From Actinomycetales bacterium (GTDB lineage Bacteria; Actinomycetota; Actinomycetes; Mycobacteriales; Micromonosporaceae), in contig PKFB01000080.1 in assembly GCA_002919305.1 (NCBI GenBank), forward strand, positions 124,001 through 188,000: DNA of 64,000 bases, given 5' to 3'. The stretch's first letter is position 1. The number at the start of each line of letters is the position of its first letter. Both the position numbers and the translations under genes were made by a program. Under the pieces are notes generated by a model. The model ran no database searches, was not told where the DNA came from, and saw nothing but the letters and a program-made list of their open reading frames with translations. Of this stretch, positions 39,554 to 44,981 are shown piece by piece.

Positions 39554-41710
39554 GTGGCGAGTGACTCAGCAGCCCTCGAGCGGGTCCTGGCCGGGCTCGA
39601 TGCCGAGCAGCAGCGGGTGGTGACCGCGCCGGCCGGTCCGGTGTGTGTCCTGGCCGGCGCCGGGACGGGGAAGACGCGTGCCATCACCCACCGGATCGCC
39701 TACCGCTCCTTGAGAGGTCAGATCCGGCCGGAGCATGTGTTGGCGGTGACGTTCACCGCCCGGGCAGCGGGGGAGTTGCGGGATCGGCTCGCCAAGCTAG
39801 GGGTGCCGGGGGTGCAGGCCCGCACCTTCCACGCGGCGGCGGCGCGGCAGCTGCGGTACTTCGCGCCCCGCCTGCTGGACGGCCGTCCATTGCCGGAGGT
39901 CGTGGAGACCAAAGCGCGTTTTGTGACGCAGGCGGCGGCCAAGGTGGGGCTCCGGTCCGCTGATCGGGATCTGGCTCGGGACCTGGCCAGCGAGATTGAG
40001 TGGGCTAAGGCCACTTTGGTGCAACCGGAGGGGTACGCGGAGGCGGCGGCCCGCGCCGGTCGGGAACCCCCGCTGGAGGCTGAGACCGTCGCCGCGGTGT
40101 ACGCGGAGTACGAACGGGTCAAGAGCGCAGCGGGCGTGATGGATTTCGAGGACCTGCTGCGAGGAGCGATCTGGGCCATTGAGGAGCACCCGGATGTGGC
40201 CGCACAGATTCGCGCCCAGTACCGCCATTTCGTGGTTGATGAGTATCAGGACGTCAACCCGGTTCAGCAACGTCTGCTGGAGGCGTGGTTGGGGCAGCGG
40301 CGGGATATCACCGTGGTCGGCGACGCCAGTCAAACGATCTACTCATTTACCGGGGCCTCGTCGCGGTATCTGCTGGAATTCCCACGCCGTTACCCCGACG
40401 CCGTCGTTGTCCGTCTGACGCGCGACTACCGTTCCACGCCTGAGGTGGTGGAGCTCGCTAACACCGTCATCAGCGCGTCACGCGGCCCTGAGGCGCGGGT
40501 GCGGCTGGCCTTGACAGGACAGCGCCCCTCAGGGCCGCCGCCGATCGTGCGTACCTTCCCGGATGAACCGGCTGAGGCGGCGGCGGTCGCCGCCCAGTGC
40601 GCGACCCTGGTGGCTCAGGGAAGGCCTCCTAGCCAGATCGCGGTGCTGTTTCGGACCAACGCCCAGTCGGCGATCTATGAGGAGGCGCTCGCCGACGCGG
40701 GGGTGCCGTATGTGGTGCGGGGCGCCGAACGATTTTTTGACAGACCAGAGGTACGCCGGGCGATGACGGCGATTCGCGCCGCTGTCGCCAGTACCGATCC
40801 CGCTGTACCGCTGCCCGAGGCGGTCATAGGGGCGTTGCGGGCGGTGGGGTGGCATCCGGACCAGCCCGCGTCGGGAGGGGCAGCGCGGGAAAGCTGGGAG
40901 GCGTTGGCGGCCCTGGTCAGGTTGGCCGATGACTTCGTGGCCGCCTCTGAAGCCGCCGAATCCGCTGGTGTCGCCGGTGCGAGCCCAGGAAGCTGGGGTA
41001 CGCCGTTGGAGCGGTTCCACGCTGAATTGCTCAGACGCGCCGCTGCCCAGCACGTGCCGACCCTGGAGGGGGTGACCCTGGCGTCGTTGCATGCCGCGAA
41101 AGGGTTGGAGTGGGACGTGGTGTTCCTGGTCGGGCTGGTGGACGGCACTATTCCGGTCTCCTACGCCCGGACTCTGGCCAATGTGGAGGAAGAGCGGCGC
41201 CTGTTGTATGTCGGTATCACCCGAGCACGGGAGGTGCTCTGGCTGTCGTGGGCCGCGGCTCGTTCTCCGGGCGGTCGTCAACGCCGGCCGTGTCGTTTTC
41301 TGCCCATGCTGGATCCCAGCTTCACCAGAAGAACCCCGGCTGCCGTGGGGGAAACGGGGGGCAAAAGAGGACGCAGCGTGCGTGGGCTGAGAATGATGTC
41401 CTGCCGGGTCTGCGGAACCACTCTGACCGATGGTGTGGCACGCAAGCTGGGGCGTTGTGTGGACTGCCCCTCTGATATCGACGAGGAGCTATATGACCGG
41501 CTGCGTCGATGGCGTGCCCGAGTAGCCGGTGAACAGCGGGTTCCGGCGTATGTCGTCTTCACCGACGCGACCTTGACGGCGTTAGCCGAACGGCGTCCAG
41601 AGCGTACTGAGGAGTTGGTGGCGATCCCCGGGATTGGGCCGCGCAAGCTCGAACAGTACGGTGACGCGGTACTGGCGTTGATTCAGGGAGCAGATCCTGA
41701 CGATCTGTAA
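39554..41710 (+). CDS. uvrD2: Superfamily I DNA helicase UvrD2
   Basis: A 718-aa helicase. The motor has AGAGTGKTRAITHRI, VTFTARAAGEL, VDEYQDVNPVQQ, GDASQTIYSFTGA and HAAKGLEWD. The C-terminal part has the tetracysteine motif CRVCG...CVDCP near residue 617 and then an HRDC domain (ending PGIGPRKLEQYGDAVLALI). This tetracysteine-HRDC tail is the mark of actinobacterial UvrD2. The GTG at 39554 is preferred; an upstream ATG at 39452 would overlap the mycoredoxin promoter region. Confidence 0.93.
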   Translation: MASDSAALERVLAGLDAEQQRVVTAPAGPVCVLAGAGTGKTRAITHRIAYRSLRGQIRPEHVLAVTFTARAAGELRDRLAKLGVPGVQARTFHAAAARQLRYFAPRLLDGRPLPEVVETKARFVTQAAAKVGLRSADRDLARDLASEIEWAKATLVQPEGYAEAAARAGREPPLEAETVAAVYAEYERVKSAAGVMDFEDLLRGAIWAIEEHPDVAAQIRAQYRHFVVDEYQDVNPVQQRLLEAWLGQRRDITVVGDASQTIYSFTGASSRYLLEFPRRYPDAVVVRLTRDYRSTPEVVELANTVISASRGPEARVRLALTGQRPSGPPPIVRTFPDEPAEAAAVAAQCATLVAQGRPPSQIAVLFRTNAQSAIYEEALADAGVPYVVRGAERFFDRPEVRRAMTAIRAAVASTDPAVPLPEAVIGALRAVGWHPDQPASGGAARESWEALAALVRLADDFVAASEAAESAGVAGASPGSWGTPLERFHAELLRRAAAQHVPTLEGVTLASLHAAKGLEWDVVFLVGLVDGTIPVSYARTLANVEEERRLLYVGITRAREVLWLSWAAARSPGGRQRRPCRFLPMLDPSFTRRTPAAVGETGGKRGRSVRGLRMMSCRVCGTTLTDGVARKLGRCVDCPSDIDEELYDRLRRWRARVAGEQRVPAYVVFTDATLTALAERRPERTEELVAIPGIGPRKLEQYGDAVLALIQGADPDDL

Positions 41711-41764
41711 CTGTGTCGTCGCCAGCCGTTCTTATATGAACTGTCAGATGACTTCCACAACAGG

Positions 41765-41808
41765 TTTAGAAAAATACGTTGCTCTCCTGTGAGCGGGAGG
41801 CATAGCCT
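41765..41808 (+). promoter_or_regulatory. WhiB7-type promoter of whiB7
   Basis: An A/T-rich block (41765-41776) stands three bases before TTGCTC (-35, 41779-41784), then an 18-bp spacer and TAGCCT (-10, 41803-41808). An A/T-rich stretch just upstream of the -35 is the feature recognised by WhiB7 with the housekeeping sigma factor, so this is a candidate autoregulated promoter. It predicts a leader of nearly 600 nt. Confidence 0.55.
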
Positions 41809-41900
41809 CAGGGAACGGATGCGGCGCCTTCGGCGCTGACCTCGATTCATGTCCGTCGATGGGTAACCACGGCGCTGGAGAAGGGCAGGAGGTGAGAACG

Positions 41901-42272
41901 GTGACCACAGCAATCGCACTTGTTGAGCAACCGTTCTCCGGGCTGTCCGCTCTCCGCGTCCAGGCACAGCTGACCACCGTGCTTTCCGGTGAGGCCCTTC
42001 TCAAAGCAGCCGCTCGGAGGCTGCTGGCAGCAGCGGCAGCACCGGTGGCACGGGCAGCGAAAGAGCTCCGATTTGAAGGGTGCGGTGCGCTCAAAGCACG
42101 ACCGTTCGCTCGAATCGGAATTGAAGCCCGTAACCGTAAGCAGACCCTCGATCAGGCCACGAATCGTGCCCTCCCAGTAATCGAGAGCACCCCGGAGACC
42201 CCTGAAATCGTCGTTTTGTCGTACCGGACCGATTACATGGGCGGAGTCCCACCTCGAGGAAGACCGGCGTAA
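41901..42272 (+). CDS. Upstream ORF in the whiB7 leader
   Basis: A 123-codon frame starting at GTG 41901, with AGGAGG 7 nt upstream, and ending 32 nt before the terminator stem that precedes whiB7. The predicted product is Ala/Leu-rich, then basic, and shows no known domain. Regulation of whiB7 by ribosome stalling on a leader ORF is established in mycobacteria and streptomycetes. I infer that this frame plays that role; its length is unusual for a leader peptide. A five-codon ORF also occurs at 41849-41866. Confidence 0.5.
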   Translation: MTTAIALVEQPFSGLSALRVQAQLTTVLSGEALLKAAARRLLAAAAAPVARAAKELRFEGCGALKARPFARIGIEARNRKQTLDQATNRALPVIESTPETPEIVVLSYRTDYMGGVPPRGRPA

Positions 42273-42340
42273 AAACGGCCATTCGGCCAGTCGGCTCACC
42301 TCGAGGCCGCGGACCCCGACTCCGGGATCCGCGGCCTTTT
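42252..42340 (+). promoter_or_regulatory. whiB7 attenuator (terminator and competing hairpin)
   Basis: The terminator is AGGCCGCGGA (42304-42313) paired with TCCGCGGCCT (42328-42337), extended inward by three C-G pairs and followed by TTTT. A self-complementary CCTCGAGG occurs inside the end of the upstream ORF (42252-42259) and again at 42299-42306, where it overlaps the base of the terminator stem. Pairing of the two copies would block the terminator base. A ribosome finishing the upstream ORF would cover the first copy and favour termination. Confidence 0.7.
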
Positions 42341-42395
42341 GCATGACCAGCGTGGTTTCACCAGACCAGAGGATCGAGACCGAGGAAGGAACGAG

Positions 42396-42779
42396 GTGAC
42401 CGGGACGATGAACCTGGCCGTGGCTCCCTTCGGCGGACTCGCCGCCGAGGGAGTCGAGCTGCCCTGCCGGCAGTACGACCCGGATCTGTGGTTCGCAGAC
42501 TCTCCGGCTGAGTTGGAGATCGCCAAGGCGATCTGCGGCGAATGCCCGCTGCGGTTGGAGTGCCTGGCCGGCGCCGTTGAGCGGCGTGAGCCCTGGGGTG
42601 TCTGGGGCGGCGAGATCTTCGAGCGCGGTGTGGTGGTGCCGCGGAAGCGGCCGCGGGGACGTCCTCGTAAGGAGGACGCCGCTCGGGACGCGATCGCCCG
42701 GGTTGAGGTGACCGTTCGGACCGAGCAGCTGTTGAAGAACACCCGCCCGATCGATGTGCACGGAGAGGACGCGGCCTGA
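42396..42779 (+). CDS. whiB7: WhiB7 antibiotic-resistance regulator
   Basis: WhiB-family iron-sulfur transcription factor. Cluster ligands: LPCRQYD, then CGECPLRLEC; the turn GVWGGE follows; and the C-terminal AT-hook KRPRGRPRKED identifies WhiB7 among the paralogues. It works with the primary sigma factor to switch on ribosome-protection, methyltransferase and efflux genes under translation inhibitors. The GTG at 42396 has AGGAAGGA 5 nt upstream; an in-frame ATG at 42408 is the alternative. The linkage uvrD2-whiB7 is conserved in actinomycetes. Confidence 0.9.
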   Translation: MTGTMNLAVAPFGGLAAEGVELPCRQYDPDLWFADSPAELEIAKAICGECPLRLECLAGAVERREPWGVWGGEIFERGVVVPRKRPRGRPRKEDAARDAIARVEVTVRTEQLLKNTRPIDVHGEDAA

Positions 42780-43009
42780 TGTACGCCCTACCAGCAGTAG
42801 CGGCGCGTGAACCGCGCCCTGTCATAGCACACCAGTACCCGGATATCACTGACGTTCGTGGATATGGGAGTAACGCCTTGTATCTGATCAATGAAGCGCT
42901 TGCGAGAGCGCGAATGTCCGAGGACACGCAGCGGCGAGAACCCAAAGTACGGGGCGCCTTATGGATCACCGCCGCGGTGCGGCGCCGCGAGCGGGAACAG
43001 CGGAGCTGA
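42779..43009 (+). CDS. Small basic protein downstream of whiB7
   Basis: A 76-aa protein whose ATG overlaps the whiB7 stop (TGATG), so translation is probably coupled. The second half is a charged helix (YLINEALARARMSED, then RRREREQRS). I recognise no family; short Arg-rich helices of this sort are often found after whiB genes. No separate ribosome binding site. Confidence 0.5.
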   Translation: MYALPAVAAREPRPVIAHQYPDITDVRGYGSNALYLINEALARARMSEDTQRREPKVRGALWITAAVRRREREQRS

Positions 43010-43409
43010 GTTTAACGCCCTGATCCGCCGACGGAAGCCGGGAGCGTCACGTAGAGCAAGCCGGTGTGAACGCTGTGATCAGCGCCGGAATAAGGCGTGA
43101 AGACAGCTTTAAAAGCATCGGGTGACGCCCCGGCCCAAGGGGAATTTAGTCCATAAAGGACTGAACACTGGCTGACGCGTCAGCGTGCGAATGTCACGCT
43201 GACGCGTCGCTGGTTTCGGGGTGGTTTCAACGAGATTTCGAACGCAAGCTGTCGGTTTTTCAGAGGATGGCGATCACTGACGAAGCTGTCGTGGATCGGA
43301 TACAACAACCCCCTAACCTGCACCCGTAACGGGGAGGCGTAGCGTAACGTCTCCAAGGTAGGGGTGAGACGGACATCACTCACCCGGTATCGGTGACAGG
43401 GGAGCAGGT
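43010..43409. other. Intergenic region with several palindromes
   Basis: 400 bp without a supported gene. It holds a small hairpin AGTCC/GGACT (43148-43162) and the larger repeat at 43174-43208. The promoter of the next gene should lie between 43210 and 43400. Confidence 0.45.
43174..43208. repeat. 14-bp inverted repeat built from two TGACGCGTCA palindromes
   Basis: 43174-43187 is the exact reverse complement of 43195-43208, with a 7-nt loop. The 10-bp palindrome TGACGCGTCA lies at 43173-43182 and recurs with one mismatch at 43200-43209, 27 bp apart. This suits either an RNA hairpin or two sites for a dimeric regulator. Confidence 0.75.
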
Positions 43410-43613
43410 GTGAACACTCGTACCGAGGAACGGGATCGGATCGAGGACGAGAGCCTGGGAGCGGTGTGCGTCTCGTGTGGCCTTGTCGTGGCCGACGTAC
43501 CGCTCATCTGGACCCGACAGGTGGGGCGCCACGGTCCCGAATGGCTCTGCGACAACTGCACCCGTGAAAACCTGAGCGCTATCGAGGGCAAACTCGACGA
43601 AATCTGGTGGTGA
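43410..43613 (+). CDS. Small zinc-ribbon protein
   Basis: A 67-aa protein with CVSCG and CDNC pairs 33 residues apart, a likely zinc ribbon, and the conserved ending SAIEGKLDEIWW. Small proteins of this pattern occur throughout actinomycetes with no assigned function. GTG start with GGGGAGC upstream. It stands alone, converging with the ABC1 kinase gene. Confidence 0.75.
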   Translation: MNTRTEERDRIEDESLGAVCVSCGLVVADVPLIWTRQVGRHGPEWLCDNCTRENLSAIEGKLDEIWW

Positions 43614-43670
43614 ACGGAGTATGACCCCGTCACTACTCCGCGAACCCTGAGATCGTGACGGGTACCCGGC

Positions 43671-44981
43671 TCAGCCAGCGAATCCGGGTACCCACCGCTC
43701 CACCACCGCGCGGTAGGGAGCCTTGGCCTCCAGCTGGCACAGCACCCCGATGGACCCCAAGGTCACCCGGTGCACCAGCAGGTACGCCGGGGGCAGGTTG
43801 AGATTCCTGCTGAATTGGTAGGCCGGGCTGCGTGGCGCGGTCAGCCGGACCGCCTCATGACGCAGCCAGGAGCGGCTGAACCGGAACTCGTCACGGGCGA
43901 TCGGCTCCAGCATGGGCAGCAGGAAGTCCAGGAGCGCTTCGGCGTCGACCTCAAGATCCGGTTTGATGAATCCCTCTTGCCGCAGCCCGTCGAGCACGGC
44001 TGTTGCTTCACCAGCCAGGGCCAGCCGGGTCAGGCGCCCGATCGGCTCGGGGAGGCCTCCCGGCAGCCGTGCGACCGCTCCGAAGTCGAATACCCCTAAC
44101 CGCCCGTCCGGGAGCATACGGAAATTACCGGGATGAGGATCGGCGTGGAGCAGGCCAGCCAGTGCGGGAGCGGAGAAGTGCAAGGTGGCCAGCAACAGGC
44201 CGGCCCGGTCCCGCTCCTCTTGGGTGCCGGAAGCGATGACTTTCGATAACGGCGTGCCGTCCATCCATTCGGTCACTAGGACCTTCGGGGAAGCGGCGAC
44301 CACCGCCGGGATCGCGATCTCGCTGCTGTCGGCGTACGCCTTCACAAAGGCCTGTTGCGTGCGGGCCTCTAACTCGTAGTCCAACTCCTCGTTGAGGCGT
44401 TCGCGTAGCTCCGCGATCAGTGGTTTGATCTCCAGCGCAGGCTGGATCACGCGGAACAGCAGCGTGGCCTTGCTGAGCTGGTTGAGGTCGGCCAACAGGG
44501 CCTCTCCCGCGCCGGGGTACTGCACCTTCACGGCGACTTCGCGACCGTCCCGCCACACCGCCCGGTGAACCTGGCCGATACTGGCCGCGGCCGCCGGTGT
44601 GTCGTCGAAGTCGGCGAACCGGCGACGCCATCGTGGGCCGAGTTCAGCGGCGAGCACCTTGTGCACGGTGGCGGCCGGCAGGGCGGGTGCGGCGTCCTGG
44701 AGTTTGGTCAGGGCCGCCCGATACGGGGCGGCGATGTGCTCGGGGAGGGCCGCCTCGAAGACGGATAACGCCTGGCCCAACTTCATGGCGCCGCCCTTGA
44801 GTTGACCCAGCACGCTGAACAGCTGCTCAGCTGTGCGCTGCTGAATCTCGGCCGTGATGGCCTCGGGGGCCAGACCGGTGACTCGTTTACCGAGACCGAG
44901 CGCGGCTCGGCCAGCGAAGCCCAGCGGGAGTGAAGCCAGTTTCACCGTACGTGATACGGCCCAGCGGGGGATGTCGGTCAC
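43671..44981 (-). CDS. ABC1/UbiB-family atypical kinase
   Basis: A 436-aa protein of the AarF/ABC1/UbiB family. The diagnostic N-terminal LKGGAMKLGQ (KxGQ motif) is followed by AAASIGQVHRA (Ala-rich loop), VAVKVQYPG with the catalytic Lys, a Glu-rich ELRERLNEELDY helix, HADPHPGNF and VFDFGAVARLP. Members act as ATPases linked to isoprenoid-lipid or quinone metabolism. No quinone genes are near, so the exact role here is open. The ThiF-like gene lies upstream on the same strand. Confidence 0.9.
   Translation of the reverse strand: MTDIPRWAVSRTVKLASLPLGFAGRAALGLGKRVTGLAPEAITAEIQQRTAEQLFSVLGQLKGGAMKLGQALSVFEAALPEHIAAPYRAALTKLQDAAPALPAATVHKVLAAELGPRWRRRFADFDDTPAAAASIGQVHRAVWRDGREVAVKVQYPGAGEALLADLNQLSKATLLFRVIQPALEIKPLIAELRERLNEELDYELEARTQQAFVKAYADSSEIAIPAVVAASPKVLVTEWMDGTPLSKVIASGTQEERDRAGLLLATLHFSAPALAGLLHADPHPGNFRMLPDGRLGVFDFGAVARLPGGLPEPIGRLTRLALAGEATAVLDGLRQEGFIKPDLEVDAEALLDFLLPMLEPIARDEFRFSRSWLRHEAVRLTAPRSPAYQFSRNLNLPPAYLLVHRVTLGSIGVLCQLEAKAPYRAVVERWVPGFAG

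Follow-up and report, generated by a model that had tools for sequence, protein, structure and literature searches.

The whiB7 locus and its leader

The window, which is the whole 64,000-nucleotide stretch of Micromonosporaceae DNA analysed here, belongs to an assembly of 4.94 Mb and carries a whiB7 gene preceded by a long leader. The whiB7 product matches Pfam PF02467 (E 6e-15) and bears an RPRGRPRK motif at its C-terminus. WhiB matches were found in all 61 genomes searched, with 73% identity for the best non-self match. A UvrD-like helicase gene with an HRDC domain ends at 41710 upstream of whiB7, and a gene near the macrolide-binding ATPase MABP-1 lies on the opposite strand downstream, past a few small ORFs. 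The best NCBIfam match of the latter gene is MABP-1 itself at 506.7 bits, below the 800-bit cut-off of that family, and the gene is likely a member of the whiB7 neighbourhood. The arrangement of UvrD-like helicase, whiB7 and MABP-1-like genes is the usual whiB7 neighbourhood in mycobacteria. A small ORF of 76 aa (42779-43009, + strand) begins inside the whiB7 stop codon with a TGATG overlap and is possibly translationally coupled to whiB7. It has no match in Pfam or NCBIfam; about 15 related loci show weak similarity to it, and in several cases the similar sequence lies directly downstream of whiB7. The features of the locus are as follows.

41771..41808, + strand: probable whiB7 promoter, with AT-rich element AAAATACG, -35 TTGCTC (41779-41784), 18-nt spacer and -10 TAGCCT (41803-41808)
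41901..42272, + strand: upstream ORF (uORF), GTG start, 123 codons, stop TAA at 42270-42272
42252..42259, + strand: copy 1, predicted antiterminator 5' arm, CCTCGAGG, codons CCT CGA GG
42260..42298, + strand: inner hairpin between copies 1 and 2, including the uORF stop codon
42299..42306, + strand: copy 2, predicted antiterminator 3' arm, CCTCGAGG, whose final four bases, GAGG, double as the base of the terminator stem
42303..42340, + strand: Rho-independent terminator, GAGGCCGCGGA...TCCGCGGCCTT, tail TTTT
42396..42779, + strand: whiB7, start GTG 42396 or ATG 42408, WhiB domain and C-terminal RGRPRK AT-hook-like motif
43671-44981, - strand: ABC1-type kinase-like protein (PF03109, E 9e-56), near whiB7

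The leader extends for ~580 nt from the predicted transcription start (~41815) to the whiB7 GTG. A Shine-Dalgarno sequence, AGGAGGTGA, at ~41887-41895 stands ahead of the GTG of the uORF, and copy 1 occupies the codons CCT CGA GG(A) near the uORF end, shortly before the TAA. As the first-pass annotation had noticed, the same palindrome is found in the last codons of the uORF and at the terminator base; the two copies are perfect palindromes in the window genome, 47 bp apart from start to start. The terminator is a GC-rich hairpin with its 5' arm at 42303-42313, its 3' arm at 42328-42338 and the T-run TTTT at 42337-42340. Its position agrees with the earlier description, which placed it 56 nt before the whiB7 GTG; measured from the end of the T-run, the distance is 55 nt. 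The T-run is short in the window genome, and the terminator was not listed by a simple terminator scan. Searches against Rfam gave no match up to E 1 in 40000-44500 and no gathering-score match in the three loci searched.

Conservation of the promoter, the uORF and the paired octamers

A DNA search with 41730-42420 as the query matched the leader in 180 of 200 Micromonosporaceae genomes. Most of the matches span only query positions 512-609 (window 42241-42338), which run from the last uORF codons through both octamers to the terminator. The comparisons below use 93 distinct leaders, chosen as those with a findable octamer pair (at least 7 of 8 pairs), a choice under which nearly all leaders of the family qualify and several leaders of other families of the order do not. 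Dinucleotide shuffles gave a chance of 0.00075 for an exact 8-nt complement of copy 2 within 92 nt upstream and of 0.032 for any 8-mer of the terminator 5' region. These estimates are irrelevant, since the block is matched across the family and the complementarity is kept in nearly all of the leaders.

Comparisons of the leaders showed a promoter pattern (AT-run, TTG, 16-19 nt, TANNNT) upstream of the uORF in 89 of 93, vs. 1 in shuffles, with a -10 end that is mostly (C/T)ATAGCCT. In these leaders, as in the window, the AT-rich element followed by the TTGC -35 and the TAGCCT -10 is as expected for a promoter autoregulated by WhiB7. The AT-rich element lies beside the -35 as in promoters of the autoregulated type. 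Nearly all other leaders hold an in-frame ORF, usually with a start preceded by a Shine-Dalgarno sequence, that ends in G-(V/I)-P-P-R-G-R-P-V-stop. Conservation of the uORF product is limited to this C-terminus; a tblastn search of relatives with the protein body gave no match beyond the last ~25 residues. An unconserved body joined to a conserved C-terminus is expected of a regulatory uORF rather than of a protein gene. The uORF end (42252-42272) also contains PRGRP, the same five residues as in the AT-hook-like motif RPRGRPRK of WhiB7 (about 42640-42685). The PRGRP-bearing end is conserved in most leaders, and the likeness to WhiB7 is probably a coincidence of the reading frame of CCTCGAGG.

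The octamers are fully complementary (all 8 pairs, with G-U allowed) in 91 of the 93 leaders and have a single mismatch in the other two. Nine leaders, six in the family and three outside it, carry the compensated non-palindromic pair CCTCGAAG/CTTCGAGG, one leader carries the compensated pair CCTCGAGA/TCTCGAGG, and G-U intermediates occur in others. Pair 7 is G-C in 81 leaders, A-U in 9 and G-U in 3, with no broken A-C seen, and pair 8 has one compensated A-U; the covarying sites are thus few, two of the eight octamer pairs. In an alignment of 20 leaders, deliberately enriched for variant leaders so that its counts show direction rather than frequency, 99.4% of cells pair, vs. 96.4% in shuffles and 35-59% with the partner slid by 1-3 columns, and 8 cells are changed on both sides, vs. 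2.9 in the shuffle comparison. A WhiB7 tree, with too few columns, is too poorly resolved to count independent compensations well. Complementarity and compensatory changes support the proposal of the first-pass annotation that the two copies can pair. The annotation had pointed to relatives that keep the terminator as the place to look for a loss of complementarity; within the family the complementarity is retained, again with compensatory changes. Its further idea of a coupling by two identical palindromes is not supported, as nine leaders use the non-palindromic CCTCGAAG/CTTCGAGG. Since compensated non-palindromic versions occur, pairing and not palindromicity is what is conserved: selection acts on complementarity, and the palindromic form is incidental.

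The same pairs bear on whether the octamers could be operator sites in DNA, bound by a repressor or an activator. Such sites would account for two perfect palindromes 47 bp apart in the window, and for palindromic copies in most leaders. However, CCTCGAAG/CTTCGAGG and CCTCGAGA/TCTCGAGG are non-palindromic yet mutually complementary, and the spacing of the copies varies (a spacer of 28-40 nt) other than by helical turns. The operator reading is highly improbable and was rejected on the strength of the non-palindromic compensated pairs.

Copy 1 is also restrained at the codon level. Its codons CCT and CGA are each present in 82 of the 83 family leaders; in the window genes, for which the 31 long ORFs served as the codon usage reference, CCT makes up 10% of Pro codons and CGA 9.6% of Arg codons. 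Unlike these near-invariant codons, the codons flanking copy 1 use several synonymous third bases. Copy 1 is constrained as RNA, beyond the peptide alone. The Arg codon after the palindrome (42261-42263, alignment columns 39-41) is AGA or AGG in 69 of the 83 family leaders, two codons that account for only 2% and 4% of Arg codons in the same 31 ORFs; pairing does not obviously explain the preference. It could be proposed that copy 1 is kept for the encoded C-terminal peptide GVPPRGRPV, for example for nascent-chain arrest, with the pairing to copy 2 secondary. The last nine residues are indeed all that is conserved of the product, and the PP motif and the rare AGA/AGG codons could slow a ribosome. 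However, the rare CCT and CGA are fixed synonymously, and where Gly at the palindrome has become Ser or Arg, copy 2 carries a matching change. Conservation mainly for the peptide is very unlikely.

Nor do these data fit a hairpin that simply ends transcription, such as that of the UvrD-like helicase gene or read-through transcription, with no regulatory role for the repeated octamer. The helicase gene does end upstream of the leader and GC-rich hairpins are common, but a conserved promoter and uORF stand between helicase and hairpin, and copy 1 shows conservation of synonymous sites as well as covariation with copy 2. We consider this explanation scarcely credible.

The inner hairpin folds in 93 of 93 leaders despite differing sequence, with a median of -12.2 kcal/mol, a median of 10 bp and a median z of -3.0 vs. 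mononucleotide shuffles. The terminator stem pairs are kept in 91-93 of the 93 leaders, two of which have compensated CCGTGG/CCACGG versions. When the exact octamer pattern was searched for across the class, most hits outside the family fell in apparently unrelated coding sequence, with the exception of a few look-alike leaders (G232, G233, G273); because of such hits the pattern alone is no measure of spread. Four whiB7 leaders from other families of the order (L065, L079, L082, L089) are without CCTCGAGG and have other complementary segments upstream and at the terminator base, such as GGCCGG with CCGGCC in L082. This suggests that the antiterminator sequence has been replaced clade by clade. 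Conserved antiterminators in sub-clades of actinomycetes are reportedly the subject of a 2022 abstract by Lee and colleagues.

Two predicted folds and the proposed switch

Folding of transcripts that end before the terminator 3' arm showed copy 1:copy 2 as the minimum-energy fold in 98% of the leaders, with a mean probability of 0.98. Masking of the uORF end, as by a ribosome, lets the terminator fold in essentially all leaders, with 99% of its pairs. For the full transcript of the window genome, a fold with all octamer pairs lies 0.6-1.3 kcal/mol above the best fold, the value varying with the segment folded, and the predicted ratio of the two states is ~50:50; over all leaders the median cost of complete copy pairing is 1.8 kcal/mol. 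Copy 2 overlaps the terminator stem by GAGG only, leaving ~4 bp that are truly exclusive, and the upper stem of the terminator is able to form in both states. With so few exclusive pairs and near-equal energies, the action would be kinetic or would proceed via the loss of the lowest terminator pairs. The models indicate that the switch probably acts on the lowest pairs beside the T-run, through folding order. The earlier picture of mutually exclusive hairpins, for which RNA folding was the suggested check, thus holds in part: two states are predicted and the folding supports a toggle between them, whereas complete exclusion of terminator closure gives way to a competition for ~4 bp at near-equal energies.

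A longer antiterminator reaching into the terminator 5' arm, through GCGG:CCGC or GUUCC:GGAAC, was also considered. Such an extension may exist but has poor support: its bases are conserved in many leaders, yet hardly any changes are compensated (a single leader for GCGG:CCGC, and one or two at individual GUUCC:GGAAC pairs). GCGG:CCGC has a low pairing probability (mean 0.30, median 0.02), and a full transcript constrained to form it loses ~8 kcal/mol.

In 78 of the 93 leaders the uORF stop codon lies 18 nt past the start of copy 1, and in 92 the distance is 18-27 nt. A terminating ribosome covers roughly 12-15 nt on either side of its P site. Thus, at a distance of 18 nt, a ribosome terminating at the stop codon would mask copy 1.

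The leader is very probably a ribosome-controlled transcription attenuator of whiB7, and the computation supports the attenuator reading put forward from the first inspection of the sequence. Its direct basis is the sequence, its conservation, the compensatory pairing, the position of the stop codon, the rare-codon constraint and the two predicted folds. RNA polymerase would start at ~41815 and transcribe the uORF. If the uORF is finished normally, the ribosome at the stop (42270-42272) would cover copy 1 and leave copy 2 free, GAGG of the free copy 2 would close the terminator base, and transcription would end near 42340. When an antibiotic or a shortage of amino acids inhibits translation, the ribosome would stall upstream or never load. 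Once copy 2 has been transcribed, and ahead of the terminator 3' arm, the uncovered copy 1 could then pair with it around the inner hairpin. This pairing would strip the terminator base and let the polymerase read through into whiB7, whose product would then activate its own promoter. The folding models agree with the earlier proposal that a stalled or absent ribosome frees copy 1 and with masking by a finishing ribosome; the ribosome effect, the read-through and the antibiotic induction are inferred from the folding together with published studies of relatives.

The main role of the copy 1:copy 2 hairpin might instead be to pause the polymerase and give the ribosome time to catch up, and not to compete directly with the terminator. 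The hairpin forms just ahead of the terminator and has only 4 bases in common with it, as a pause hairpin might. However, a leading ribosome would mask copy 1, so that the hairpin would form only with the ribosome lagging or absent, and published work on relatives is described as antitermination. A mainly pausing role is accordingly unlikely, and direct competition with the terminator is preferred. Within the attenuator, the uORF end GVPPRGRPV-stop, with its PP motif and the rare CGA and AGA/AGG codons, might be a slow or stall site that parks the ribosome on copy 1 and masks it until the polymerase clears the terminator. RNA pairing and the pace set by peptide and codons would then be selected jointly within the same ten codons. 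This is a tentative suggestion and on balance unlikely.

Relation to known attenuators

Conserved attenuation at the mycobacterial whiB7 uORF was shown in 2014 (PMC4128351). PMC10727445, which cites Lee et al. 2022 and Burian & Thompson 2018, describes actinobacterial whiB7 leaders as carrying a uORF and a terminator that attenuates transcription; when the ribosome stalls, an antiterminator hairpin arises from overlapping uORF and terminator sequences. A whiB7/wblC switch of the same design appears in PMC11550727 and is repeated in PMC13393426. The primary sources for the whiB7/wblC antiterminator, as summarised in these articles, are Lee, Lee & Roe 2022 (doi 10.1111/mmi.14834) and Burian & Thompson 2018 (doi 10.1111/mmi.13890). 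The coupling, which the first-pass annotation took to be undescribed, is thus already in the literature, as PMC10727445 and PMC11550727 make clear. The mechanism is published for whiB7/wblC, and the Micromonosporaceae leader is a further instance. The sequence evidence indicates that the published antitermination switch is present and under selection throughout the Micromonosporaceae, a family rich in antibiotic producers, and the exact base pairs are now defined and testable.

The window leader shares with whiB7/wblC attenuators the downstream whiB7 gene, a uORF with a ribosome-binding site in a long leader and an intervening Rho-independent terminator, together with an antiterminator of uORF and terminator sequence that is predicted from folding and conservation. 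With the Streptomyces/Mycobacterium whiB7/wblC attenuator the likeness covers the same gene, the uORF, the terminator just upstream and the antiterminator at the uORF/terminator overlap. Induction by ribosome stalling, reported for that attenuator, would by analogy be a further likeness, and the published signal is general translation stress. Unlike in other whiB7/wblC leaders, the CCTCGAGG octamer or its compensated forms and the inner hairpin belong to the Micromonosporaceae and some neighbours; elsewhere in the order, families have different antiterminator sequences or no visible equivalent. The resistance-gene attenuators lmo0919/rli53, vmlR and tiaA/are5sc (PMC11550727, PMC12421871) are alike in that uORF translation picks the terminator or the antiterminator, but they concern different genes with unrelated sequences, and the uORFs of Streptomyces tiaA/are5sc are much shorter. 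Attenuators of amino-acid biosynthesis such as ilvB1NC (PMC13236596) also choose between terminator and antiterminator by ribosome position. However, the stall in ilvB1NC is placed by a stretch of regulatory codons that specify the end-product amino acids, whereas no such stretch is evident in the whiB7 leader.
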